This document shows, in pieces, positions 3,290 to 21,908 of a stretch of 21,908 bases of DNA. The DNA comes from a virus. Within the stretch, counting starts at the first letter, position 1; every line of letters begins with the position of its first letter. The position numbers and the translations under genes were made by a program. The notes under the pieces were generated by a model that searched no databases, was not told the DNA's origin, and saw nothing but the letters and a program-made list of their open reading frames with translations. Where the stretch lies: positions 1 to 21,908 of IMG/VR virus record IMGVR_UViG_3300007538_000222; one strand, written 5' to 3'.

Positions 3290-3744
3290 TTTCCCGCTGC
3301 TTCCGCCTCCTGCGCTGCGAGTGTTGCTTGACGGTGGCCGGCTGCCGCAAGGCAGAAGTCGAGGAGGAACTTCCACTCGCGCTGCACGAGCAACTCGGTG
3401 GCTTTCTCTTCGGTCCAGATGACCGCCTCACCGTTCACCGTGATGTTCTGCCAGCCGCGCAGGATCTTCTTCGCAACCGCTGTCCCGGTGATCTTGTTCA
3501 TCAACGAGTCACGCTCGGAGTCGCTGAGATCGCCGCCGCGCAGCTTCGTCAAGTGTGGCTCGCGCTCACGCTCCGACTGCCGCTCGAATGCGTAGCCGCT
3601 TGGGACGATCAGCAGGGCCGCGTCGTCGTCCTTCGGCTTGTCGACGGGGTTGCCGATCAGTTCCCCGCCTTCCATGCGAACGACCCACCACGCGCCCTTG
3701 TCGAGCTTCTGCGTGTCCACCTTGATGCCTGAAAGCTCAAGCAT
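3283..3744 (-). CDS. tail assembly chaperone, G-like
   Basis: The protein has 153 residues. The frame extends upstream to 3774, but I choose ATG 3744 because it forms a TGATG overlap with the stop of the tail tube gene. The sequence is mixed alpha/beta with a WTEEKATELLVQREWKFLLDFCLAAAG helix region near the C-terminus. It ends in EAEAAGNS just after the slippery heptamer, with TAG two codons beyond. Position between tube and tape measure, length, and the -1 extension identify it as the G partner of a G/GT pair by analogy with lambda. I see no recognised sequence family beyond this context. Confidence 0.85.
   Translation of the reverse strand: MLELSGIKVDTQKLDKGAWWVVRMEGGELIGNPVDKPKDDDAALLIVPSGYAFERQSEREREPHLTKLRGGDLSDSERDSLMNKITGTAVAKKILRGWQNITVNGEAVIWTEEKATELLVQREWKFLLDFCLAAAGHRQATLAAQEAEAAGNS
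3289..3295 (-). promoter_or_regulatory. programmed -1 ribosomal frameshift site, GGGAAAC
   Basis: Read on the minus strand in the G frame, the codons are GCG GGA AAC TCG TAG. This gives the canonical X_XXY_YYZ heptamer G_GGA_AAC in the correct phase. A slip of -1 enters the open T frame. AGGAGG occupies 3311-3306, leaving exactly 10 nt to the heptamer. This is the arrangement of the stimulatory Shine-Dalgarno element in E. coli dnaX. Downstream, TGCTGTG (3276-3270) can pair with CACAGCA (3259-3253) around a 10-nt loop, starting 12 nt after the heptamer. The function is an inference from these elements and the gene context. Confidence 0.87.
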
Positions 3745-4913
3745 CAATCCCACCTCTGCAAGCGGGCGGTGCATAGCTCGACTGGGTCTTTGATGGCCGT
3801 GGCCGCCAGGTCGACCAGCACGTCGGTGTTGCTGCCACTGACATCTGCGCCGGCATCGGAGAACTTGACCTGGGGCAGCGAGAGCGAGTAGCCCTTGGCG
3901 TTCTCGTCCTCGGCAACGAACCAGATGTCCGTGGACGTGTTTCCTGCGTAAGCCTCCAACGCGGTGAAGTCTTCGAGGTAGGCGGTGATGCGGCCACTGG
4001 CACCGAACTCGCCGAAGCGCATCGACTGAGCACCTAGCGCGCCGATCTGAGTCCTTGGCGATGCGTTGTTGGAGAATGCCATGTTGATCGACTTGGCGAC
4101 GTATGCAGCACCTCCCGACCGAATCTCAGGGATGCCGATTGAGTCGAGCACTGGCGCGACGGTTGGGTCCGTGTAGGTGGCGCCAGTGATGAACACGTCG
4201 GTTGAGACGGCAGAGTTGACGAACGTCGAGCTGGCTGCCTGAATCGAGAAGTTCGCGGTGGTGATCGCCTCGTCGGCAACAGTCAGGTCCATCGAGTCGA
4301 TGACACAGCCCGTGAACAGTCGCGCCTTCTGGTTATCTAGGTATGCAACCTCGATCGTGTAGTACTTCTGCGTGGTGCCGTTCTTGAGTCGTGCGCCGCG
4401 AGTGACGCTCATGTCGCCGGTTGCGTCCCCGGTGAAGTTCGCGTCGGCCTCGACAGTGATCAGTTCCTCTGCAACGGCAGTGACCTTGAAGTATCCAAGG
4501 TCTGCGGCCAGCCCCTCGGTGGTCTTGACGATGTCGCCGACCTCGATCCCGTCAGTGACGAACTCTGCACCAGACTTCGAAATGGTCTTGGTTCCGGCGA
4601 CTGTCGTGACTCCCAACTCAGTGAATGCGGCTGTCTCTGTCGCAGCGAAAGCGCCGCGAATCATCAACTCCAGCCCCTCGGTCGTCGGCGAGTAGGTCAA
4701 CTCCATCGGGATGCCACCACCACCAGACTTGCTCAGGCGGATGATGTCCTGCAAGTTGCGATCGTTGTTGATCGTCCGCGACTGCTGATAGCCGATGCGG
4801 TCGCGCAGGCTGACGCCCGTCGTGGCCAGGACTTGGAAGGCAGGAGTCGCTGGCGTGACGCCGAATGTTGACTCCTCAACGATGGATACTCTGATCCTGT
4901 TACTGTCGCTCAT
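3744..4913 (-). CDS. tail tube (major tail) protein
   Basis: The protein has 389 residues. The start is ATG 4913, which makes a 4-nt ATGA overlap with the preceding gene; a further upstream in-frame start would give a non-phage-like basic leader. The N-terminus (NRIRVSIVEESTFGVTPATPAFQVL) and GVSLRDRIGYQQSRTINNDRNLQDIIRLSKS are typical of phage tail tube proteins, as is the mostly beta, Thr/Ala-rich composition. A central section around 130-190 (GIEVGDIVKTTEG and a following beta stretch) may be an inserted surface domain, making it longer than simple ~200-aa tube proteins. It lies between the tail terminator and the chaperone pair, the canonical position. It should polymerise as hexameric rings around the tape measure. 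Confidence 0.88.
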   Translation of the reverse strand: MSDSNRIRVSIVEESTFGVTPATPAFQVLATTGVSLRDRIGYQQSRTINNDRNLQDIIRLSKSGGGGIPMELTYSPTTEGLELMIRGAFAATETAAFTELGVTTVAGTKTISKSGAEFVTDGIEVGDIVKTTEGLAADLGYFKVTAVAEELITVEADANFTGDATGDMSVTRGARLKNGTTQKYYTIEVAYLDNQKARLFTGCVIDSMDLTVADEAITTANFSIQAASSTFVNSAVSTDVFITGATYTDPTVAPVLDSIGIPEIRSGGAAYVAKSINMAFSNNASPRTQIGALGAQSMRFGEFGASGRITAYLEDFTALEAYAGNTSTDIWFVAEDENAKGYSLSLPQVKFSDAGADVSGSNTDVLVDLAATAIKDPVELCTARLQRWD

Positions 4914-5323
4914 GGTGTCACCACGTCGGCGCGGAAGGGGATTCGCACGGTGCGCCGGCACCATGCTTCGTCTTGCTCTGCCACGCCGAGAACAGACGGC
5001 GAAGGCGTAAAGGTGATGTCGGGGTCGGCGATGCGCTGCCCCTGGAATGCTGCGATGACCAAGTCGGCGATAGCGAGCACGGCCGCGTCACCCTTGGCGA
5101 TCGGCGAGAACAACAGCGCGGTTGCCGATCCGACCGACCTGTGGCGAACCTGCCCCATGCTGACTTGGCTCGTGCCGTCGATCTGCACCGAGAAGCGGCA
5201 CCATGACTGCACGCGGCCAGATGGCTCGGGCGCGTTGTCGTGGATGACCCGCAGAGATTGCGGCGTCGCGACCTCGGTATCGAACCGGTTGCGAACAGCG
5301 GTCAGGATGTCGGCGAAGCTCAC
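4910..5323 (-). CDS. tail terminator protein (DUF4128-like)
   Basis: The protein has 137 residues. The GTG at 5323 is chosen because it overlaps the previous stop as GTGA and removes a spurious Arg-rich leader. The sequence starts FADILTAVRNRFDTEV and continues through a compact alpha/beta pattern (WCRFSVQIDG, VRHRSVGSATALLFSPIAKGD, LAIADLVIAAFQGQRI, WCRRTVRIPFRADV). This resembles DUF4128-type tail terminators that cap the tube and join it to the head. Position between the gp10-like gene and the tube gene supports this. Assignment rests on pattern and gene order. Confidence 0.75.
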   Translation of the reverse strand: MSFADILTAVRNRFDTEVATPQSLRVIHDNAPEPSGRVQSWCRFSVQIDGTSQVSMGQVRHRSVGSATALLFSPIAKGDAAVLAIADLVIAAFQGQRIADPDITFTPSPSVLGVAEQDEAWCRRTVRIPFRADVVTP

Positions 5324-5817
5324 TGCACCCTCGCATACTTGGCGGAGATGGCTGCGACCGCTTGCGCGACCATGCCTCGCGGCGCCTGCTTGGACCACCC
5401 GTTCTCCAGCCTGAACATGTATGGCAGCGGGTTGCCGATGTAGGCGATCGTTGGAGACTTGATACTTGCGGCTACGTCGTAGCCGATCCGCAGAGCCTCT
5501 GACCCGTTCGCGTCTACGCCTGACAGCGGCCGGGAGCTTGATGCGCCGATGGTCACCTGCCAGTTCTTTCGAGCGTGGCCACCCACGTAGCCCCTCGGAA
5601 GCGGCTCTCCACTACCTGCTGCGCGACCTTCTCGGCCCGCCCTGCGCCGTCGCAGGATGTTGGCCTTCCACTTGGTGTGGTTGCCTACCGGCGTGGCCTG
5701 CACGATCAACGTCAACGCCTCGGCGACGATGGTTCGCTGCACCTCCGCAACGCGAGCCGGAACCGTCTCCTTGATCCACTTGCTGATGTCCAGGCCGAAG
5801 CCTCGTGCGTCAGTCAT
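5320..5817 (-). CDS. HK97 gp10-like neck/tail completion protein
   Basis: The protein has 165 residues from ATG 5817, which overlaps the previous gene by 8 nt. The frame is open further upstream, but that part is out-of-frame shadow of the neighbouring gene. The pattern TPVGNHTKWKAN, HARKNWQVT, YIGNPLPYMFRLENGWSKQAPRGMVAQAV is the standard signature of HK97 gp10-like proteins (a Thr-Pro-Val motif, an NW motif, then a Tyr-pair/Glu-Gly-Ser/Gln-Ala-Pro motif). An Arg-rich stretch, ILRRRRAGREGR, at about residues 45-56 is unusual and may contact DNA or the neck. Such proteins act at the head-tail joint or in tail completion. Confidence 0.83.
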   Translation of the reverse strand: MTDARGFGLDISKWIKETVPARVAEVQRTIVAEALTLIVQATPVGNHTKWKANILRRRRAGREGRAAGSGEPLPRGYVGGHARKNWQVTIGASSSRPLSGVDANGSEALRIGYDVAASIKSPTIAYIGNPLPYMFRLENGWSKQAPRGMVAQAVAAISAKYARVQ

Positions 5818-6178
5818 CGCCGATCTCCCCCACGTCGACCTGATAGGCCAGCGCAACGCCCTGTAGCTCGTAGGTCGTGGTTGCGATGATTGCGAACGTG
5901 CGCGCGCCGAACTCGATTCGGTGCCCATTGCTCGGCGCGACCGCCAAGCCGCTGGCCGCCATGTAGAACGTCCCCGTGACAGTCGTAGCGGCCCCAGTCG
6001 CTGCATATCGCTTTGCTTCGTCGACTGGCCCCACAAGCGTCACGGAGACAGATGTCGGAACTTCGGTCACTTCACCCGCTTCGTATGTGCCATTGGGAAC
6101 GACAAGCGTTGCCGATGCGCCGAACCGCGTGATTGCGGCAAGCGTCTTCGTTGCAAGCTTGTCGGTCAGAGCGGTCAC
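5810..6178 (-). CDS. probable head closure/stopper protein
   Basis: The protein has 122 residues, starting at GTG 6178 in a GTGA overlap with the adaptor-fusion gene. It begins with a short helix (LTDKLATKTLAAITRFGAS). A beta-rich body follows: ATLVVPNGTYEAGEVTEVPTSVSVTLVGPVDE, then GTFYMAASGLAVAPSNGHRIEFGARTFAIIATTTYELQGVALAYQVDVG. The theme of a parameter description with a conserved 'hrIefg.rtfaIi' turn is common in head-tail joining/stopper proteins of this operon position. I infer the role mainly from position between adaptor and gp10-like genes. Confidence 0.7.
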   Translation of the reverse strand: MTALTDKLATKTLAAITRFGASATLVVPNGTYEAGEVTEVPTSVSVTLVGPVDEAKRYAATGAATTVTGTFYMAASGLAVAPSNGHRIEFGARTFAIIATTTYELQGVALAYQVDVGEIGDD

Positions 6179-8751
6179 CGGGTGATCCTCACCATCGACT
6201 TGCTCGATGAGTAGGACAGCAGACCGCGCAGCTTGCTCTCGACGATCGGGAAGCGTGGATGTGTCCCCTGCTGACCGGCGAACGACTCGCTGACCGAGAT
6301 CGGCCCGATCGAGAACGACGACGACGAGATGTTGTCAGTCCCAGCGGCAAGGTCAGGCCGGAGGCTGATGCCGGACAGGTGACGGATGGCAAGCTCTGCG
6401 CAAGCCTCTTGCAGCCGGCGCGGGATTACGTCGCTGTTGTATTGAAGGTTGCTGTCAGAGTCGACGGCGCCCATGCGCGGCCAGGTCAATGCCTGCGTCA
6501 GCGTCAAGACAGTGCCGCGCCACGATCCGCCGTGGACATCGTCCAGATATGCGGTGCCCTCGCGCAAAGCGTTCTGCTTCTCGATCGTGGTAGCTCCCGT
6601 CCATGTTGCCGGGTTGCTGCGCGTCGCGAAGTAGCTATCGCCGAATGCGACGGTGGCGTAGCTGTTCGCATCCGTTGCCCCGCTCCCGGCTTCGACGGTG
6701 AAGGCGGCGGAACTAGACAGGGTCGACGTTGTCGTATCTGTCTCGCCTTCATCGCTGTTCAGTGCGATCAGCGTCTCGGCAAGCTGCCTGCCGATCTGCA
6801 AGTTGGCCTCGCCGCTCCAGTGGATGTTGTCGCGCTTGAGCCGGAAGCCGGTGTCCGCAGATACCGCGAACTTGGCGTCCGTCGTGGCTAGCTGCGCAAC
6901 AGCCGCCCGGACGGTCGACCGATCCGCAAACGTGCCTCGAGTGCTGTATCCGCCCTCGTCGACATGCTTCGGGATCTCCTGCATCGCGACCGAGAGCGAA
7001 CCCTCTGAGCGCGTCTGGAACGTCTCGCGCCATGCGGCGACCGTATCCGCCAGCTTCGTAGCGAATGCCGCAGCGGCGGTGGACGACATCACGTCGTTGT
7101 CACCTAGCAGCGCGGCAACACCACGAACGTCTAGCGTCCTCGATAGCTGCGAGTAGACCTTGGCGATGACCTCGGACCACCACGTCTTAGTGTCGCTCCA
7201 CAGGCTATCTGTGAGCGTGATGTCAAACGACTCGATGCCTATGTCGTCTTGACCTTCGACAGTGAGTGATGCGCCACCCTGCGCAACCTTGAGCAGCAGC
7301 ACGCCGTTCGGGTGTTCCTCTGCCAGCCGAGCCAGGAAAGTGCAGCTAGGTCCAGCGTATCCGCTTGCCGGAGCACCGTTGGCGTTGTCGTTGGCAGTTA
7401 CGTCGTATAGCTCGATCGTCTCGTTGTCGCCGTTGTAGACCCACTGGTCCTGCCTGACCGTGCCAGGACTCGGGCCAAGCAACTCTTCCGACCCTTCCGC
7501 GACGATGAAGTTCAACTCGATCTGCCCGACTGCTTGCGAGTCGCCGAGCATGATGTATGTGGCGATGCCGGTTCCTGGCGCCACAGTCGGTGCAGCTGCG
7601 TGATAAGCCTCGATCGCGTTTGCGATCTGCACGCCATGCGTCAGAACTGACGGCACGTCGTATCCGGTCGCGTCTGTCAGCAATGCCGGGTTCAGGGCGT
7701 TTGCGTCAATCAGCCGGACGTAGTCGTCGCTGCCATCGCCGGGGTCGGTGTTGGCCATGACCCGCGTCCACTGGCGCACAGTCTCGGCCAATGGGCCGCC
7801 ACCTACGCTGTAGAGGTGCGAGACGTTGCCGATCTCCGCGTGCGGGTTGACGAGGAAGATGGGGACAGTGGTTCCGAACTTGGCTCGGATCTGCGTCAGG
7901 ACCAGGAACAGCTGGCCGAAGTAACTCTCGTTGTCGAGTTGGATGTCCTCGTGGGCGAAGTCGAGAACGATGCCTTTGATGTCGGCTGTGTCCGCGTCAT
8001 AGGCCAACTCCGCCTTGTCCCACTCGGCTACGAATGATGTCCATGCAGTGCCACCGGTAACCATCTGCGCGATGCCGGTATCGAAAGCCTGTTTGAAGAC
8101 CCGGAAGTAGGGCGACGTTGGATACAGCTCGTTGAGCCGCTCCATGAGCTTGATCGACGGGCCGAAGTTGCCAGGGGTAGACTGGAACCAGTTATCACCC
8201 AGCGTGCCCTTGTTCTGCCCGATCGTCGGGTTGTAGCCAGAGCGCACTGGGTTGTATCGGCGCCATGCACCTGTGGCGATGTGCATCACGTCGCCGGCAG
8301 ACGGGGCAACCGGCAGCGCAGGCGTGATCGTGATGGCCGTGGCCGTATGACTGGCGATCGTTCGCTCGAGTCCAGCAGGCGCCAGGGCTGCGTTGGATGT
8401 CTCGTCGAAGTAGACCTTCTTGCCGGTCAAGTCGCCGGCGAACGCGGCGCCGGTCAAGGTGAACGTGGTAGTGGTCGGCGATGGCGATGCAGCGACGACG
8501 AACTGCCCAGTTGTCGCGTTGGCGCCTTCCGATCCTGGCGTGCCAGACTTGCCATCCCACCAGACCTTGGCCGTGGAGTCGTTGCCGACATCCAGCGTCA
8601 GCTTGGGATCGCCCAGGCCGGTGAGGAACAGGTCCGCAGGCGACAGCGGCAGCCCCGCCGTGAGCGGGTATCCTGGCTGCGGTGTGACCGTGGCAGTGGT
8701 GCCGGTGATCGTCTCGCTACCCAGGTAGATGATGGTCGGGATCGCTGCCAC
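6175..8751 (-). CDS. SGNH carbohydrate esterase fused to DnaT-like head-tail adaptor
   Basis: One unbroken frame of 858 residues begins at GTG 8751, with GAGG a few bases upstream. Residues 1-160 are beta-rich with Thr/Gly repeats. Residues ~165-390 resemble a sialate O-acetylesterase (SGNH) fold (KGIVLDFAHEDI where QGESD is usual) but lack the catalytic Ser and His. Residues ~397-665 form a complete SGNH module: GDSQ with Ser405, Gly492, GDND with Asn552, and DNIH with Asp641/His644. A Ser/Thr/acidic linker (665-683) leads to 684-858, a DnaT-like domain (VEAGSGATDANSYATV, AYLDD, QALTWPRMG, DVIPRRLQEACAELA) known from phage adaptor genes just after the capsid gene. No in-frame ATG, GTG or TTG lies just before the adaptor, so it seems made only as part of the fusion. 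Predicted role: 12-fold neck ring carrying glycan deacetylase/esterase activity. Confidence 0.85.
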   Translation of the reverse strand: MAAIPTIIYLGSETITGTTATVTPQPGYPLTAGLPLSPADLFLTGLGDPKLTLDVGNDSTAKVWWDGKSGTPGSEGANATTGQFVVAASPSPTTTTFTLTGAAFAGDLTGKKVYFDETSNAALAPAGLERTIASHTATAITITPALPVAPSAGDVMHIATGAWRRYNPVRSGYNPTIGQNKGTLGDNWFQSTPGNFGPSIKLMERLNELYPTSPYFRVFKQAFDTGIAQMVTGGTAWTSFVAEWDKAELAYDADTADIKGIVLDFAHEDIQLDNESYFGQLFLVLTQIRAKFGTTVPIFLVNPHAEIGNVSHLYSVGGGPLAETVRQWTRVMANTDPGDGSDDYVRLIDANALNPALLTDATGYDVPSVLTHGVQIANAIEAYHAAAPTVAPGTGIATYIMLGDSQAVGQIELNFIVAEGSEELLGPSPGTVRQDQWVYNGDNETIELYDVTANDNANGAPASGYAGPSCTFLARLAEEHPNGVLLLKVAQGGASLTVEGQDDIGIESFDITLTDSLWSDTKTWWSEVIAKVYSQLSRTLDVRGVAALLGDNDVMSSTAAAAFATKLADTVAAWRETFQTRSEGSLSVAMQEIPKHVDEGGYSTRGTFADRSTVRAAVAQLATTDAKFAVSADTGFRLKRDNIHWSGEANLQIGRQLAETLIALNSDEGETDTTTSTLSSSAAFTVEAGSGATDANSYATVAFGDSYFATRSNPATWTGATTIEKQNALREGTAYLDDVHGGSWRGTVLTLTQALTWPRMGAVDSDSNLQYNSDVIPRRLQEACAELAIRHLSGISLRPDLAAGTDNISSSSFSIGPISVSESFAGQQGTHPRFPIVESKLRGLLSYSSSKSMVRITR

Positions 8752-8777
8752 TGGTCGCCTCGCGCTGGAGTCAATGC

Positions 8778-8824: not shown

Positions 8825-9946
8825 TTAGCCGAGGATCTTGACGATGCCTTCGCTGCGAACTGCCTTGACGCCCCAGAGCGCGCTGACAACCCACAGGTCT
8901 TGCATCCATCCGCGCATCGTTTCGAGCCGCACGGCCAATCCAGATACCGGGTCAACGAGCGTGTCGGTCATCGCATTGGCGTCACTGGCAGGCAGCGGGC
9001 GCGATGCGAATGCAATCGAGTCCGAGGTAAACGCGAGGTTCGCCACGTGGTCGTTGTTGACCGTGATCGCATTGCCGGTCGGAATGGCATTCACCAAGCC
9101 GGGGCTATTGATCGTGACCGTGCCAGCGCCGCCCGTGTATGCCTCTGCAACCACGTACTTGTTCGCCGTGTCAGCAGCGAACGAGATCACGTCGCCAGCA
9201 ACGAGCGCCCCGGTGCCAGTCTGGACCACGATCGACGTTGCCCCAGCAGCCTGAATGCCATTGGTGACGTAGCCAGATCCGACACCCTTGGTATGGGTTG
9301 GGATGTTCTGGTTCTGCCACCACTGCGAGCCAACGCGGCGGTTGCCGTCGAAGGTGCCGTTGGTCATGGCTTGGTAGTCACCAACAAACTGGCTGTTCGC
9401 GAACTCGGGGAGGGCGATCAGGTTGGCTTCCGCGTCTGCATCGAACAGAACGTGGCGGCCTTCCTTCTCTACCTTGTTGCGGTTCAGGATCTTGTTCGCC
9501 TGGACAGCGAGGATCGCTGACGCGAAGGGAGTGGTCCCGGATGTTCCGGTAGCAGCGCCAGCGCCTTGGCTGCCAGCGGTGAGGATCGACACGTCGATCG
9601 CATCCACGAGCGTGGACATCGCCTTCGAAAGCACCTTCGGCATGTTGCCCTCACGCACGTCAAACTTGTCCTTATCAGACAGTTGGAACGTGACGTACTT
9701 CCAGTTGGCCATCTCGACATCGACAGCCGTTGGCGTCATGTCTGGAGGCGTTGGAGGAGTGACGCCTGGGGTTACGTCGCTGACCGTCATGGACGGCGTC
9801 ATCGGAACGCTGATCTTCTGGCCCTTCTGGGCAGACAGCGCCGAGTATTCCGACGTGAGCAGACGAGGAGTGACGCTGTTGGCCCGAAGCGGGTTCAGCA
9901 TCAACGTGAAGAGATCCTCGTAAAGCGAGGAGAGGTTGTTCGCCAA
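8825..9946 (-). CDS. major capsid protein, P22 coat family
   Basis: The protein has 373 residues if translation starts at TTG 9946 (ANNLSSLYEDLFTLMLNPLRANSV follows), the start that matches the P22 coat family N-terminus (MANxLSNL...). An upstream TTG at 10027 would add 27 residues of unlike character. Family features include TPRLLTSEYSALSAQKGQKISVPMTPSM near the N-terminus, WKYVTFQLSDKDKFDVRE, VLFDADAEANLIALPEF, and a beta-rich insert (ATSIVVQTGTGALVAGDVISFA to NNDHVANLAFTSDSIAFASRPL) common in this family. It ends with VSALWGVKAVRSEGIVKILG. With the scaffold gene upstream and no protease, assembly is P22-like, although the tail genes are siphoviral. No Shine-Dalgarno sequence precedes the start. 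Confidence 0.9.
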   Translation of the reverse strand: MANNLSSLYEDLFTLMLNPLRANSVTPRLLTSEYSALSAQKGQKISVPMTPSMTVSDVTPGVTPPTPPDMTPTAVDVEMANWKYVTFQLSDKDKFDVREGNMPKVLSKAMSTLVDAIDVSILTAGSQGAGAATGTSGTTPFASAILAVQANKILNRNKVEKEGRHVLFDADAEANLIALPEFANSQFVGDYQAMTNGTFDGNRRVGSQWWQNQNIPTHTKGVGSGYVTNGIQAAGATSIVVQTGTGALVAGDVISFAADTANKYVVAEAYTGGAGTVTINSPGLVNAIPTGNAITVNNDHVANLAFTSDSIAFASRPLPASDANAMTDTLVDPVSGLAVRLETMRGWMQDLWVVSALWGVKAVRSEGIVKILG

Positions 9947-10207
9947 TTGTCTAGAACCGGCAGCGATCGTTGGCTGTCCGGTCTCCAAGGGGTGCGTTTT
10001 CCGCAGACCACCCCTTGGTGGCGCCAACCATCAGCTAACTGCTCAATTCGATGACCGGAGCGGGACGGATCCCGGTGCGGTGAGCGACAAGAGCAAGACT
10101 GACAACCGGCAACATCCTGTGCGAGTCCTTATCGGAGTGGCACAGGTGCGCGGGCCGCTTGGCGCCTGGCTTATCCAGGGCGAAACCTCGCGGCTGATGG
10201 CTTTTTA
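9947..10207 (-). promoter_or_regulatory. structured leader region of the capsid gene
   Basis: This 261-nt stretch is the longest without a convincing gene. On the minus strand it contains, in order: a bulged hairpin at 10182-10163 with loop ATAAG; a 7-bp repeat CCTGTGC/GCACAGG (10146-10140 and 10122-10116) with an inner TCC/GGA pairing around GATAA; CGGGA-TCCG-TCCCG at 10074-10061, a UNCG-type tetraloop; and CCAAGGGGTG/CACCCCTTGG (10018-10009 and 9994-9985), a perfect 10-bp stem. Two 26-codon frames (ATG 10115 and ATG 10031) are also present. I see no convincing -35/-10 promoter. A cis-acting RNA that sets capsid expression is possible. Confidence 0.5.
9985..10018 (-). repeat. 10-bp perfect inverted repeat before the capsid start
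   Basis: CCAAGGGGTG at 10018-10009 pairs with CACCCCTTGG at 9994-9985 around a 14-nt loop. An alternative fold keeps 8 outer pairs and adds TGCG/CGCA around GAAAA with a five-base bulge. The 3' foot lies 38 nt before the TTG chosen as the capsid start. Confidence 0.7.
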
Positions 10208-16419: not shown

Positions 16420-16797
16420 TTACTCGAACCTCGGATCTGGCTCGATGTTGTCGACATCTTCGGATGCTGGCTCACGTTTGGCCCACCTATCAGGCCAGCG
16501 TCGTTCGAGCATCCATGCGGCGGCGGTCCAGTGCTTTTCGGTGTGTCGGAGGATCTTGCCGTGGAATCCACTTTCCGCCTGCGCTTCTGCCTTTTCTAGG
16601 GCCGTAACAAAGTCAGGGTTGCGCATCTTGTGCATACGCATCGCATCTGCGCTCACGCCGTGCATCTGTGCAGCGCGATCCGGCCACACTCCAAGCGCCA
16701 CGGTGCGAAGGATGGCGTCGATGTTCTCGTCCGTCATCTCGGTGCGCGGTCGGCCCACCTTGGCGGGCTTCTTCTTCGCTTTGCGCTTACTAGCCAC
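16420..16797 (-). CDS. terminase small subunit
   Basis: The protein has 125 residues from GTG 16797, overlapping the methyltransferase gene by 8 nt. A Lys/Arg-rich N-terminus (SKRKAKKKPAKVGRPR) leads into a helix-turn-helix region (ENIDAILRTVALGVWPDRAAQMHGVSADAMRMHKMRNPDF), followed by helices and WTAAAWMLERRWPDRWAKRE, a pattern seen in many small terminases. It should recognise the packaging start on phage DNA and load the large subunit. Location directly before the large subunit supports this. Confidence 0.87.
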   Translation of the reverse strand: MASKRKAKKKPAKVGRPRTEMTDENIDAILRTVALGVWPDRAAQMHGVSADAMRMHKMRNPDFVTALEKAEAQAESGFHGKILRHTEKHWTAAAWMLERRWPDRWAKREPASEDVDNIEPDPRFE

Positions 16798-17956
16798 GCA
16801 CCGCCTGCTTGCCTGTTAGGTTCTCCCACCGCTTGACGATCACGTCGCAGTATGCGGGGCTGATCTCCATGCCGTAGCACTTTCGGCCCAGTTGTTCGGC
16901 GGCGATCAGCGTGGTGCCGGATCCGAGGAATACGTCTAGGACCAGCGCCGCGCCTCTGGTTGTCTTCTCGATTGCCTCGGCAGCCAAGGCAACTGGCTTT
17001 TGCGTTGGGTGAACATATCTCGCCGCAGCGTCCTTGCCGAATGACCATACGCTGCCGATGCGCTTGCCGCACAACTCTGATCCACGATGGAAAACCATCG
17101 CCACCTCGTAATCAGTCGAGAAAGTTCGCTTTAGGTCGCCAATGCCTCCTCCGCCTTTGTGCCACACTACCAAGTTGCTCATGTCGCCAATCTGGCTTAC
17201 GGCTTCGGTCCACTCTGTTAGCACCCTCCAAGTCGTCCAGATAAACACCCATCCGCTGCTATGAGACATGGCTGGCGCAACCCACTCCGTAGCGATCGCA
17301 TCATCTCCATCAATGACGGCGAACTTGGCAGACTTCGTGCGCATGTTCGACTGGTAGCTGATCCCATATGGAGGATCGGTGAACACTAGCGATGCAACAC
17401 CACCAGCCATCAGCCTGCCAACATCCTCCGCTTTGGCAGAATCACCACAAAGCAACCGATGCTCGCCAAGCAGCCACAGGTCGCCAGGCTTCGTCACAGG
17501 CTCATCAGGAACAGGCGGTGCCTCATCCTCGACGATGTCGGTAGGCTCCAGCCCTGACATCAACTGGCGCATGTCCTTCTCGTCAAACGCCAGCGAGTTG
17601 CGCGTCTCGTCGTCCATGCCGTCGAGCAGGCTAGCAAGCGTCTCGTCGTCCCATTCCGCTAGCTCGCCCGTTCGATTGTCGGCGATGGCGAACTGCGATG
17701 CGGTGGCGTTGTCCTCGTCGATGACGACTGCCGCCAGGTGAGTCCATCCAAGCGCCTTGGCGGCCTCTAGCGTGCCGTTACCAGCGCGGACAATCATCCC
17801 CTCGCTCTGCACCACGATCGGCTTGCGTTGCCCGAACTTGTGCAGCGATGCCTTGATGGCGTCTAGGTTCTTCTGCCCGTGCTTGCGTGCGTTGGCCGGG
17901 TCCGGCGTCAAGTCGGCTATAGGAACCGACAGGTGCTCGATCTGTTTGGCTATCAA
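16790..17956 (-). CDS. ParB-like domain fused to DNA adenine/cytosine-N4 methyltransferase
   Basis: The protein has 388 residues from TTG 17956 in a TTGA overlap. Residues about 8-95 are a ParB/Srx-like domain (LTPDPANARKHGQKNLDAIKASLHKFGQRKPIVVQ, then GNGTLEAAKALGW). Residues about 160-385 are an N6_N4 methylase: DPPYG at 194-198 (motif IV; DPPY is typical of N6-adenine enzymes), HPTQKP at 316-321, and DVFLGSGTTLIAAEQLGRKCYGMEI at 341-365 (AdoMet-binding motif I). The order, motif IV before motif I, is the beta class. No partner endonuclease is near. The likely purpose is to protect phage DNA from host restriction. Such fusions are frequent in phages. Confidence 0.9.
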   Translation of the reverse strand: MIAKQIEHLSVPIADLTPDPANARKHGQKNLDAIKASLHKFGQRKPIVVQSEGMIVRAGNGTLEAAKALGWTHLAAVVIDEDNATASQFAIADNRTGELAEWDDETLASLLDGMDDETRNSLAFDEKDMRQLMSGLEPTDIVEDEAPPVPDEPVTKPGDLWLLGEHRLLCGDSAKAEDVGRLMAGGVASLVFTDPPYGISYQSNMRTKSAKFAVIDGDDAIATEWVAPAMSHSSGWVFIWTTWRVLTEWTEAVSQIGDMSNLVVWHKGGGGIGDLKRTFSTDYEVAMVFHRGSELCGKRIGSVWSFGKDAAARYVHPTQKPVALAAEAIEKTTRGAALVLDVFLGSGTTLIAAEQLGRKCYGMEISPAYCDVIVKRWENLTGKQAVRG

Positions 17957-18547: not shown

Positions 18548-20347
18548 CTAGACGCCTGGCGGAACCCATGACCCGCCGCCGTTTGCGACTTGGTCCCAGA
18601 TCTGTAGCGCCTCGGCGTGGTATGGCTCGTGGCGAAGGATCGTTGCGATGCCGGGGACCGCCCACGAGTGGTCGAACCATCCGGTGCGATGCGCCCCCTT
18701 GCCCTCGACGTATTCGGCTGCCGGCAGAACCGTGCCATCCGTGTAGCCGACGTTGTCCCAGAAGATCCAGCGCCCGTTGGGTTGCTTGCGCCATGCGTGG
18801 GCGATGACTGCCTTGGCTGCTGCGAGTGCCAGGTCTCTGCCACCCTTGCCGCCGATGATGGTGCAGGCCAGGTCCAGACCGTAAGCGCCTAGCGACTGCT
18901 GCCAGAACATGGTGCCGCGCTGGTAGCCGTCAAGGTCAGCGGTGATGCTCTCATCGGCGCGACTGTCCCAGATGCCACCAGGCAGCCCGGACAACTCCGG
19001 CACGTAGACCTTCTCGACGCGATCGACCCAGCGATCGGCCACCTTGTCCGCCAGTTCGCGGTTCGCCAGCCCCTCGTAGAGATGCACGGCCACCATGCCC
19101 GCATAGCCGACAGATCGGGCAGCGTCGCAGTGTGATGTCGACAGGCTGCGGTCGATGGTCTCGCCGGCAAGGAAGCTCGTGGCTTGGTGCTCGAGCAACC
19201 TTTGGAGCATCGGGCAACCGTAGATGCGGGCAGCTGCGGCGAGCGTGCCTAGCAGCCAGTGCTCCCGATCTGGGCCGAACCAGTTGCCGGGCGCATCCCA
19301 TGCGGCCAAGTCTCGCTTCTTGCCGAGCCGGTCAGGGCTTAGACGGTGCGGTCGGCTGCTCCAGAAGAACATGCCGGGGTGCGCGGCCAGGTCGAGCGGT
19401 GCGCCGCTGTCCTCGTAGTGATGGCACGGGCGCTGGGCATACTTGCACGCGCTCAGGTAGGCGACATGTTCGGCTCCGGCTCCACCGGGCAGCAACGACT
19501 CCCCGCGCACAAATAGCTGGTCCTCCTGGCTGCCTGTCTGGCTGCTGGTGGGCGCAATGCCGACGACCGGGTATCCGTAGTCGTGCAGGCGATCGACTGC
19601 GCCACGCCAGTGCTGGCGGCTCCACGCCATCGGGTCGAAGCCTGGAGCGTATTGCGGGTTGCCGTCCGGCAGCAGGCGATGGAGCGCGGCGCATCCGATG
19701 AGGCCACCAGCCTGCATCTTCCAACTCGCGCCTTGCTTGGCGGTCGAGTGGCTAGGCCAGAACACCGAGAACGGGAGCGCGTTGCCTTGCCCATCAGCTA
19801 CCGGCTTGGCGTCTGCGAGCGGTTGCCAGATCTCTCGCCCCTCGACGTAGACGATGCCGTTGCCAAACTCCAACTTGATGGCTGGGGCTTGCGTGAGCAG
19901 CTTGTCGGTTCGCGGCGTGCTGTGGACCGTCAGGATGCGACCCTCTGCCCATGGCTGGCCGGGGTATTGCGTCAACCAGACTTCCGAGACCATCTCGCCG
20001 TGCCGCAGGCGCATGTGGGCGACGTATGCTGGGCCGTCCGTCTTGATGTCGAGCACCGGCAGCGTCAGCCCGTTGAGCTTGATCGGCCCGCCGAACCAGC
20101 TCATGCCGTTGGGCGGTTCCGGCGCCCAGTCCCACGGGCGCGACTCGGTCATGTCCAGCGACCTGCGCTCGCCCGGCTGTAGCTCAACGTGGACGTGGAT
20201 GGCCCGAGTGTCTTTGCCGGTGCTGTTGCCCAGGACATACCTGGCGCCTTCGACCTGGCCAGCCTTGTGCGGCGGCATCCAGTCGATGTTGCGGCGGACC
20301 CATCCAACGAACGGGTGCGCGCCATGGTTTGCTAGGGCGATGCGCAC
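18548..20347 (-). CDS. large candidate carbohydrate-active virion protein, toroid-like
   Basis: The protein has 599 residues from GTG 20347, with no clear Shine-Dalgarno. Residues about 30-195 are beta-rich (VEGARYVLGNST, HVHVELQPGERRSLDM, SEVWLTQYPGQPW, KLEFGNGIVYVEG). Residues about 210-590 are mostly helical with recurring Trp, His and Asp, for example FGPDREHWLLGTLAAAARIYG at 357-377, RSVGYAGMVAVHLYEGLANRELADKVADRW at 411-440, and WFDHSWAVPGIATILRH at 557-573. A beta domain with an alpha/alpha toroid recalls polysaccharide lyases or glycosidases such as YetA/PcRGLX-type proteins, but I cannot assign a catalytic residue or family. The neighbours suggest a glycan-binding or glycan-degrading spike. 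Confidence 0.75.
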   Translation of the reverse strand: MRIALANHGAHPFVGWVRRNIDWMPPHKAGQVEGARYVLGNSTGKDTRAIHVHVELQPGERRSLDMTESRPWDWAPEPPNGMSWFGGPIKLNGLTLPVLDIKTDGPAYVAHMRLRHGEMVSEVWLTQYPGQPWAEGRILTVHSTPRTDKLLTQAPAIKLEFGNGIVYVEGREIWQPLADAKPVADGQGNALPFSVFWPSHSTAKQGASWKMQAGGLIGCAALHRLLPDGNPQYAPGFDPMAWSRQHWRGAVDRLHDYGYPVVGIAPTSSQTGSQEDQLFVRGESLLPGGAGAEHVAYLSACKYAQRPCHHYEDSGAPLDLAAHPGMFFWSSRPHRLSPDRLGKKRDLAAWDAPGNWFGPDREHWLLGTLAAAARIYGCPMLQRLLEHQATSFLAGETIDRSLSTSHCDAARSVGYAGMVAVHLYEGLANRELADKVADRWVDRVEKVYVPELSGLPGGIWDSRADESITADLDGYQRGTMFWQQSLGAYGLDLACTIIGGKGGRDLALAAAKAVIAHAWRKQPNGRWIFWDNVGYTDGTVLPAAEYVEGKGAHRTGWFDHSWAVPGIATILRHEPYHAEALQIWDQVANGGGSWVPPGV

Positions 20348-20778: not shown

Positions 20779-21908
20779 TTAGATACCGATGCCGATGCCA
20801 AGTGAGAGGCGCTGCGCCCCGGAACCAGAGACGACGGCGCCAGAACTGACGGCCAGCGCCGCTGGATGGAACGTTGTCGCGAACTCGCCGTGCCCAGCGA
20901 ACAACGTCACTGATGCCCCGATGTAGTCCAGCACCGCTGCGTATTTGACATACTGCGTCAACGGTTCGGGAGAGAACGTGCCGAACGGAAGGTGCCCGAA
21001 GTCACCGTCCTTGCCGTTGCCTCGTGGTTGGTCGAGCGTGAAGACGCAGAACCCCTGGACTCCTAGGTCTTCTAGGCCCTGGAGGTATGTCGCATACGCA
21101 GACCCCATCTCGGGGACGTTCTGCATCGTCAGCAGATACGCTCGCAGTGCAGCATCGCTAGCGACTGCTGGCGCGTAGTGCTGGCCGCCCTCGTAGAGAA
21201 CGATCGGCAGCCCGTAGCCTAGATCAATGTGGCTTTGGACGTAGCCGAGCGATACCTCGATCGCCTTCGCTACCCCGTTGACTTCCGTCGAGTCGGCTGC
21301 GGTGTAGTCACTGAAGAATTGCTCCGTCGTTCTAGTTTGATGCCACGCGCTCTGTGCGCTTGACGTTGCACCACCGAAGTAAGGCGCAATCGACAGGATG
21401 TCAACGACCCCCACAGCGGCGCTGCTCTCGGCCAGCATCATCTGGTCGCACAACCAGCTATTGGCTGCCTGAGATGCCAGCACGCGCTGCATCTTGGTGC
21501 CCTGCGTCAATCCCGCAGTGTGCATAAGCGCCCAACACTCACGACTGCGGCGGATCGTATACCATAGTCGCTGGATTGTTACCGACTCCGCGGGCCAGAT
21601 CAGAGCACCCTGGTCGCCGACATACGTTGTCTGCTGGAAGACTCCGTTCCAGGTTTCATTGCTGTATTCGACGTATACCGTGCCGTCACAATCCAGGAGC
21701 TTCGTCGCTGCTGCTGTGACTGCTGCGTCTGTGGCTTGGTGGGGGATGCAATACCACATATCGCAACCGAGCTTGTTGGCCAGCGCGACACATACCTCGA
21801 TGGGCACGCCATAGTCCCCGCCCCAGTAGAGGTAAGACTGTGGTCGTAGCGTGTCGGTCGTCGTCGAGTTCTTTGTCGCCAGCCAGTTCATGAACCGGAG
21901 CAACGGGC
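20779..21908 (-). CDS. clan GH-A-like glycosidase domain protein, N-terminus beyond window
   Basis: The frame is open to the right edge, so the N-terminus is missing. Counting from the TTG at 21903, the first ~330 residues look like a TIM-barrel glycosidase: PQSYLYWGGDYGVPIEVCVALANKLGCDMWYCIPHQATD, VYVEYSNETWNGVF (candidate acid/base Glu83), SIAPYFG, and LPIVLYEGGQHY (candidate nucleophile Glu238). NE-x-W plus a late Y-E-G strand is the clan GH-A layout. The C-terminal ~45 residues (TFHPAALAVSSGAVVSGSGAQRLSLGIGIGI) are small-residue-rich, as in other virion fibre proteins. It probably cleaves or binds host surface glycan. The exact family is not decided. Confidence 0.78.
   Translation of the reverse strand, partial: PLLRFMNWLATKNSTTTDTLRPQSYLYWGGDYGVPIEVCVALANKLGCDMWYCIPHQATDAAVTAAATKLLDCDGTVYVEYSNETWNGVFQQTTYVGDQGALIWPAESVTIQRLWYTIRRSRECWALMHTAGLTQGTKMQRVLASQAANSWLCDQMMLAESSAAVGVVDILSIAPYFGGATSSAQSAWHQTRTTEQFFSDYTAADSTEVNGVAKAIEVSLGYVQSHIDLGYGLPIVLYEGGQHYAPAVASDAALRAYLLTMQNVPEMGSAYATYLQGLEDLGVQGFCVFTLDQPRGNGKDGDFGHLPFGTFSPEPLTQYVKYAAVLDYIGASVTLFAGHGEFATTFHPAALAVSSGAVVSGSGAQRLSLGIGIGI

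Follow-up and report, generated by a model that had tools for sequence, protein, structure and literature searches.

A head-tail adaptor gene of an uncultured phage encodes an N-terminal pair of SGNH domains, one of them a predicted esterase

The window (the whole 21,908-nt stretch of virus DNA analysed here, positions 1 to 21,908 of IMG/VR record IMGVR_UViG_3300007538_000222) encodes a protein in which a degenerate SGNH copy (pseudo-SGNH), an SGNH domain, a linker and a head-tail adaptor follow one another in one chain (Table 1). Profiles, gene order, predicted fold and conservation in three divergent lineages give good support to the view that residues 389-667 of this product are an intact-looking SGNH esterase fused to a neck adaptor. 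Our reading, to which we give a probability of about 0.6, is that the gene specifies a head-tail adaptor with a glycan-esterase appendage at its N-terminus, forming two-lobed neck arms that would bind and deacetylate glycans. Adaptors belong to the core assembly machinery and are small in nearly all cases. A 670-residue enzymatic arm that is conserved in divergent phages and absent from the nearest relatives points to the adaptor N-terminus as an evolvable attachment point for host-interaction modules.

Table 1. Features of the fusion gene and its neighbours. Positions are those of the window; residue numbers refer to the fusion protein except in the Neck1 row.
Feature	Positions	Strand	Basis or remark
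Fusion gene, 858 aa (pseudo-SGNH, SGNH esterase, linker, head-tail adaptor)	6178..8751	-	stop codon 6177-6175
GTG start codon	8751-8749	-	sequence
GAGG Shine-Dalgarno, 6 nt before the GTG start	8758..8761	-	sequence
Degenerate SGNH copy, residues 1-388	7588..8751	-	hhalign to second copy, model
SGNH/SASA esterase domain, residues 389-667	6751..7587	-	Pfam SASA 1.5e-8; Foldseek 2apj, 1zmb
Nucleophile Ser405 (GDSQ)	7537..7539	-	invariant in relatives
Gly493, oxyanion-hole glycine	7273..7275	-	conserved across relatives
Asn552 (GDND; GEND in lineage C)	7096..7098	-	conserved across relatives
Asp641-Asn-Ile-His644 (DNIH; DNVH in lineage C)	6820..6831	-	conserved across relatives
In-frame TTG, residue 651, possible start for a short adaptor	6799..6801	-	GAGG 5 nt upstream
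Acidic Ser/Thr-rich linker, residues 668-683	6703..6750	-	low model confidence; length varies in relatives
Head-tail adaptor (Ad1, 'DnaT_2') domain, residues 684-858	6178..6702	-	PHROG 477, PF20557
Major capsid protein (P22 coat-like, PHROG 283), directly upstream of the fusion gene	8825..10027	-	Pfam, PHROG
Head closure Hc1 (PHROG 161), directly downstream of the fusion gene	5810..6178	-	
Frame with Neck1 / tail completion protein (PHROG 169)	5320..6036	-	residues 64-236 matched
Tail terminator (PHROG 179)	4910..5398	-	
Tail tube protein (Phage_tube_2)	3744..4964	-	

The 858 codons form an uninterrupted frame on the minus strand, read from 8751 down to 6178, and the plus strand of the stretch holds no continuous frame, being broken by stops. 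A preliminary description had reported a frame of this length at 6175-8751; the frame is real and intact, and its strand, which that description omitted, is the minus strand. The gene is also intact in two other IMG/VR records with 100% and 99.98% identical DNA, the first identical over 9.6 kb and the second with two mismatches in 8.9 kb. Scans of viral contigs with a single sequence matched the same phage only. An assembly or sequencing error joining two genes, which the preliminary description had allowed for, is excluded by the identical frame in these two assemblies and is refuted by relatives at about 33-36% identity that have the same architecture in other contigs.

In order of transcription the window encodes terminase, portal, minor head protein, scaffold, P22-like coat, the fusion gene, Hc1, Neck1, tail terminator and tail tube. 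The order from major capsid protein through Ad1, Hc1, Neck1 and terminator to tube is that of HK97, and Type-1 necks have the gene order Ad1-Hc1-Ne1-Tc1 after the capsid gene (PMC4362835), in agreement with the earlier view that the adaptor occupies its canonical position after the capsid gene. The Neck1 frame probably has its true start internally, because PHROG 169 covers only part of it. Among the other minus-strand genes of the window, positions 16790-17956 encode a ParB-N domain fused to an N6/N4 DNA methyltransferase, beside the terminase genes, and positions 18548-20347 a 599-aa frame to which neither Pfam nor PHROG gives a significant match.

Residues 682-856 match PHROG 477, 'head-tail adaptor Ad1' (E 1.1e-37, profile positions 7-179 of 220), residues 683-858 match Pfam DnaT_2, PF20557 (E 1.3e-30, profile positions 2-167 of 168), and the domain aligns with standalone adaptors. 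Modelled alone (AF2, 37 sequences; pLDDT 86.7), it folds into helices, a beta hairpin and a C-terminal helix. When the full-length model was compared with predicted viral structures, the top matches were standalone 'DnaT-like' phage proteins. A structural match of the domain to known adaptors, the lack of which the preliminary description would have counted against it, was looked for and not obtained: Foldseek comparison of the adaptor model with the PDB gave nothing significant (best, the 812 neck, E 1.1; YqbG and the GTA neck weaker), hhalign to HK97 gp6 was not significant, and comparison by sequence with solved adaptors gave no match. Identification as an adaptor rests on the PHROG and Pfam families, synteny and a predicted helical core with a hairpin, and the 12-mer is an assumption, because no solved adaptor was matched significantly. 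A 12-mer on the portal and a place in the virion would follow the pattern of the family, and the side on which the N-terminus emerges is likewise assumed. The protein thus resembles the Type-1 neck adaptor Ad1 (PHROG 477 / DnaT_2; gene position of HK97 gp6 and SPP1 gp15) in family (E 1e-37), gene order and modelled core, and differs from a typical Ad1, which has ~170 aa and begins at the domain, in its long N-terminal arm. A standalone adaptor elsewhere in the same genome, named earlier as possible counter-evidence, was not found; there was at most one adaptor gene per contig examined, all of these contigs being fragments.

The second SGNH copy has the features expected of an esterase. Pfam SASA matches residues 466-662 (E 1.5e-8), the sequence covering only profile positions ~64-225, and SGNH blocks I, II, III and V (Ser, Gly, Asn and Asp-x-x-His) are all present. 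Ser405, Gly493, Asn552, Asp641 and His644 show no variation in any lineage that covers those sites. Three of the four blocks stand as first described; the glycine is Gly493 and not Gly492, as judged from conservation across relatives. Foldseek matched the whole-protein model to the plant esterase 2apj (E 2.3e-7, TM 0.70 by target) and to the Clostridium acetylxylan esterase 1zmb (E 2.7e-5, TM by target 0.63), with weaker matches to a cyanopodophage tailspike and sialic acid esterases. By sequence, 2apj alone was matched in the PDB, weakly, and no NCBIfam family was found. The full-length AlphaFold model has a mean pLDDT of 64, which makes its details unsafe, and the confidence is low near some parts of the active site. 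The profile searches and structure prediction proposed in the preliminary description recovered SASA, DnaT_2 and the SGNH fold of the esterase. Motifs and modelled fold suggest that residues 389-667 are an active esterase, and SGNH domains on phage adsorption or receptor-binding proteins are demonstrated esterases (PMC11654681, PMC13123978).

The preceding residues, left undefined (1-396) in the preliminary description, contain a second, catalytically degenerate SGNH copy that had been missed. Profiles of residues 1-388 and 389-673 align by hhalign over 213 columns (probability 97.7%, E 1.5e-12), as against at most 0.9% for 40 column shuffles and 0.3% for the reversed profile. Direct BLASTP between the two halves was not significant, and the duplication is visible by profiles only. 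The order of strands and helices in the AlphaFold model (mean pLDDT 64, as above) matches between the two parts, and a beta-rich insert lies around residues 83-158 of the first. Where the catalytic copy has GDSQ, the degenerate copy has GSET in the window and GDKQ or GDEQ in relatives, and a conserved DxxH is absent from the aligned relatives. Residues 1-388 are therefore predicted to be inactive. A profile scan with this region, all of whose matches were listed, found only members of the fused-adaptor family.

The linker between the esterase and the adaptor has pLDDT below 50 at residues 669-682. The earlier statement that no start codon closely precedes the adaptor is roughly true, but TTG651, the nearest in-frame start, lies 33 codons upstream behind its GAGG, and initiation there could give esterase-free adaptors in the phage of the window. 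Internal initiation is not conserved across lineages, because in L147 (lineage C) the 60 codons next to the adaptor contain no in-frame start, and the nearest one in L149 is without a Shine-Dalgarno-like sequence.

Adaptors were collected by a profile scan that gave 80 loci from viruses and 45 from genomes of bacteria and archaea; an alignment of 13 adaptor sequences was too diverse for scanning. Almost all of these adaptors, taken together with a further set of phage adaptors, are standalone proteins of about 170 aa that start at the domain. Besides the phage of the window, the only long-armed adaptors in that scan were L024, L042 and L039, all with the architecture of the window. Scans with the esterase halves added L147, L148, L149, a second L149-type record and L150, in which the contig ends before the adaptor is reached. 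The fusion is seen directly in three lineages with about 33-36% mutual identity: the window, L149/L024 and L147/L042/L039. In L147 and L149 the fused gene occupies the same slot before Hc1, Neck1 and terminator and is preceded by an unrelated capsid family, PHROG 212 (that of the window is PHROG 283). These PHROG 212 major capsid genes lie at 3339-4298 of L147 and 3507-4415 of L149, and the neck and tail genes are still common to these phages and the window. Values of dN/dS between close pairs are 0.12-0.36 in every domain; the whole fused frame is therefore under purifying selection. An N-terminal arm of 660-680 aa is unique to the fused family among about 130 viral, phage and prophage adaptors surveyed. 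A sample of 398 further genomes gave 12 adaptors above the family cut-off, every one of them standalone, and searches of 50,697 phage records and 72,556 plasmid records gave no credible match to the esterase arm. A different kind of enlargement is seen in L091 (4015-4884), a 289-aa adaptor with about 110 aa inserted inside the domain.

The closest relatives of the window in head and neck have no arm. L022 and L023 are collinear with it through portal, minor head, scaffold, coat, adaptor, Hc1, Neck1, terminator, tube and chaperone at about 32-69% identity, and are closer to it than L147 or L149 across the head genes. In both, the coat gene is followed directly by a bare adaptor, and their contigs yielded no SASA domain. 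Assembly of the neck evidently does not depend on the arm, and since these closest relatives have a bare adaptor, the esterase module appears to be an optional add-on. In the adaptor tree the window groups with L022 and L023 and not with the other fused adaptors, a placement which suggests repeated gain or loss of the arm, or its transfer between adaptors. The test of a single clade for the fused adaptors gave a borderline result (AU p 0.053); one origin is neither shown nor firmly rejected.

According to the proposed mechanism, the adaptor domain would assemble on the portal as in other Type-1 necks, and each copy would hold a two-lobed arm outside the neck by way of the flexible acidic linker. 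The inner lobe would be an active-looking SGNH acetylesterase. The outer lobe, a degenerate SGNH that would keep the fold and has lost the nucleophile, would most likely be a glycan-binding or structural partner. A collar of such arms might bind acetylated surface glycans (capsule, O-antigen or exopolysaccharide) and remove their acetyl groups, and so ease passage or give reversible attachment before the tail tip engages. We infer the presence of the arm in the virion, its copy number, orientation, activity and substrate. The adaptor ring of RcGTA has a diameter of 143 Angstrom (PMC7296036); by arithmetic, twelve arms of ~55 Angstrom fit round a ring of that size at a radius of about 110 Angstrom or more, which is within reach of a linker of 16-25 residues. 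A bolder form of the proposal, which we hold tentatively and at somewhat less than even odds, is a distinct virion organelle: an adaptor-built ring of pseudo-SGNH/SGNH arms in which the dead copy holds acetylated glycan for deacetylation by the live one, the glycan-processing collar being gained and lost as a cassette at the adaptor N-terminus.

Several known systems are similar in part. The SGNH / SASA-CE6 esterases (2apj, 1zmb, SIAE) have catalytic blocks and a predicted fold in common with the window protein, which differs from them by its degenerate tandem copy and its fusion to a neck protein of the virion. SGNH tail fibres and tailspikes (the G7C esterase tailspike, Klebsiella prophage RBPs) are likewise phage SGNH acetylesterases acting on surface glycans (PMC13123978), but are sited on receptor-binding proteins and not at the neck; esterase activity has been shown for the tailspikes of the N4-like phages Moo19 and B2 (PMC11654681). 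In the neck passage structures (NPS) of 936 lactococcal phages, groups F and G have domains resembling a carbohydrate-esterase binding module, so that a glycan-related module stands at a siphophage head-tail junction in a protein of 500-900 aa (PMC6669499). These NPS are separate collar proteins with a BppU-like N-terminus (a proposed 18-mer) and not adaptors, and the module is read as binding, whereas the window protein starts with an SGNH strand and is anchored by an adaptor. In DEV, the adaptor gp83 has an outward lectin-like insert, and a collar at the adaptor is built from the gp53 fibre, which has a carbohydrate-esterase-like domain; no LPS hydrolase activity of this fibre was detected in virions (PMC10925440). 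DEV and other N4-like phages (Schitoviridae) differ in being podophages with another adaptor type, the esterase being on a trimeric fibre and not on the adaptor chain. Both systems put carbohydrate-esterase-like modules at the neck, and the earlier remark that this is an unusual place for glycan-modifying activity was too strong. What is new here is the module within the adaptor chain itself, in tandem with a dead copy and toggling between close relatives; the open-licence literature searched gave no description of an SGNH domain as part of a head-tail adaptor.

These comparisons bear on an unlikely alternative, in which the SGNH pair is mainly glycan-binding, or lectin-like, and catalysis is weak or irrelevant, as in the carbohydrate-esterase-like modules of the 936 NPS. 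One of the two copies is without its nucleophile in every lineage, which agrees with binding, as do the modules of NPS groups F and G and the DEV fibre; pure binding would not, however, require the second copy to retain every catalytic residue at about 33-36% identity, as it does. Less probable still is a structural arm that contacts the capsid or stabilises the head-neck joint, the esterase fold being an exapted spacer. Adaptors of RcGTA and phage 812 do have outward, capsid-touching domains (PMC7296036, PMC12886913), but the retained catalytic residues, the presence of the module after capsid genes of two unrelated families (PHROG 283 for the window, PHROG 212 for L147/L149) and its absence from collinear relatives make such a role very improbable.

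The esterase might also be separated from the ring, by proteolysis of the linker or by initiation at TTG651, leaving plain adaptors with few or no esterases at the neck and a freed enzyme that acts elsewhere. The GAGG upstream of TTG651, the predicted flexibility of the linker and the standalone adaptors of close relatives, which work without the module, are consistent with this. We consider it rather improbable, since internal initiation is not conserved in L147 and L149, and three lineages keep the fused frame, none of them showing a split into two genes. Under the preferred reading of adaptor-borne arms, an esterase collar would be placed at the virus neck and not on tail fibres in a small group of uncultured phages. 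This suggests a possible site other than the tail fibres for glycan deacetylation, and the adaptor N-terminus may be a natural fusion site for neck display, probably at a fixed copy number.

Positions 632-1582 of the window (minus strand) encode a PHROG 2913 'glycoside hydrolase' tail protein, which is also conserved, at about 45-55%, in L147 and L161, two other phages with a fused adaptor. Positions 20779-21906 (minus strand), upstream of the terminase genes, encode the C-terminal part of a roughly 860-aa protein that continues at 12981-15000 of L160, another record of the same phage; its weak match to a right-handed beta-helix (Pfam Beta_helix, E 8e-4) makes it a possible tailspike or depolymerase. 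Downstream of the window, L159 (4092-7148 and 7553-8689, minus strand) encodes gene-transfer-agent-type tail-tip proteins (an Rcc01698-like C-terminus, a phiJL001 Gp84-like hub and BR0599), and L159 8686-9540 a Gp38-like adhesin.
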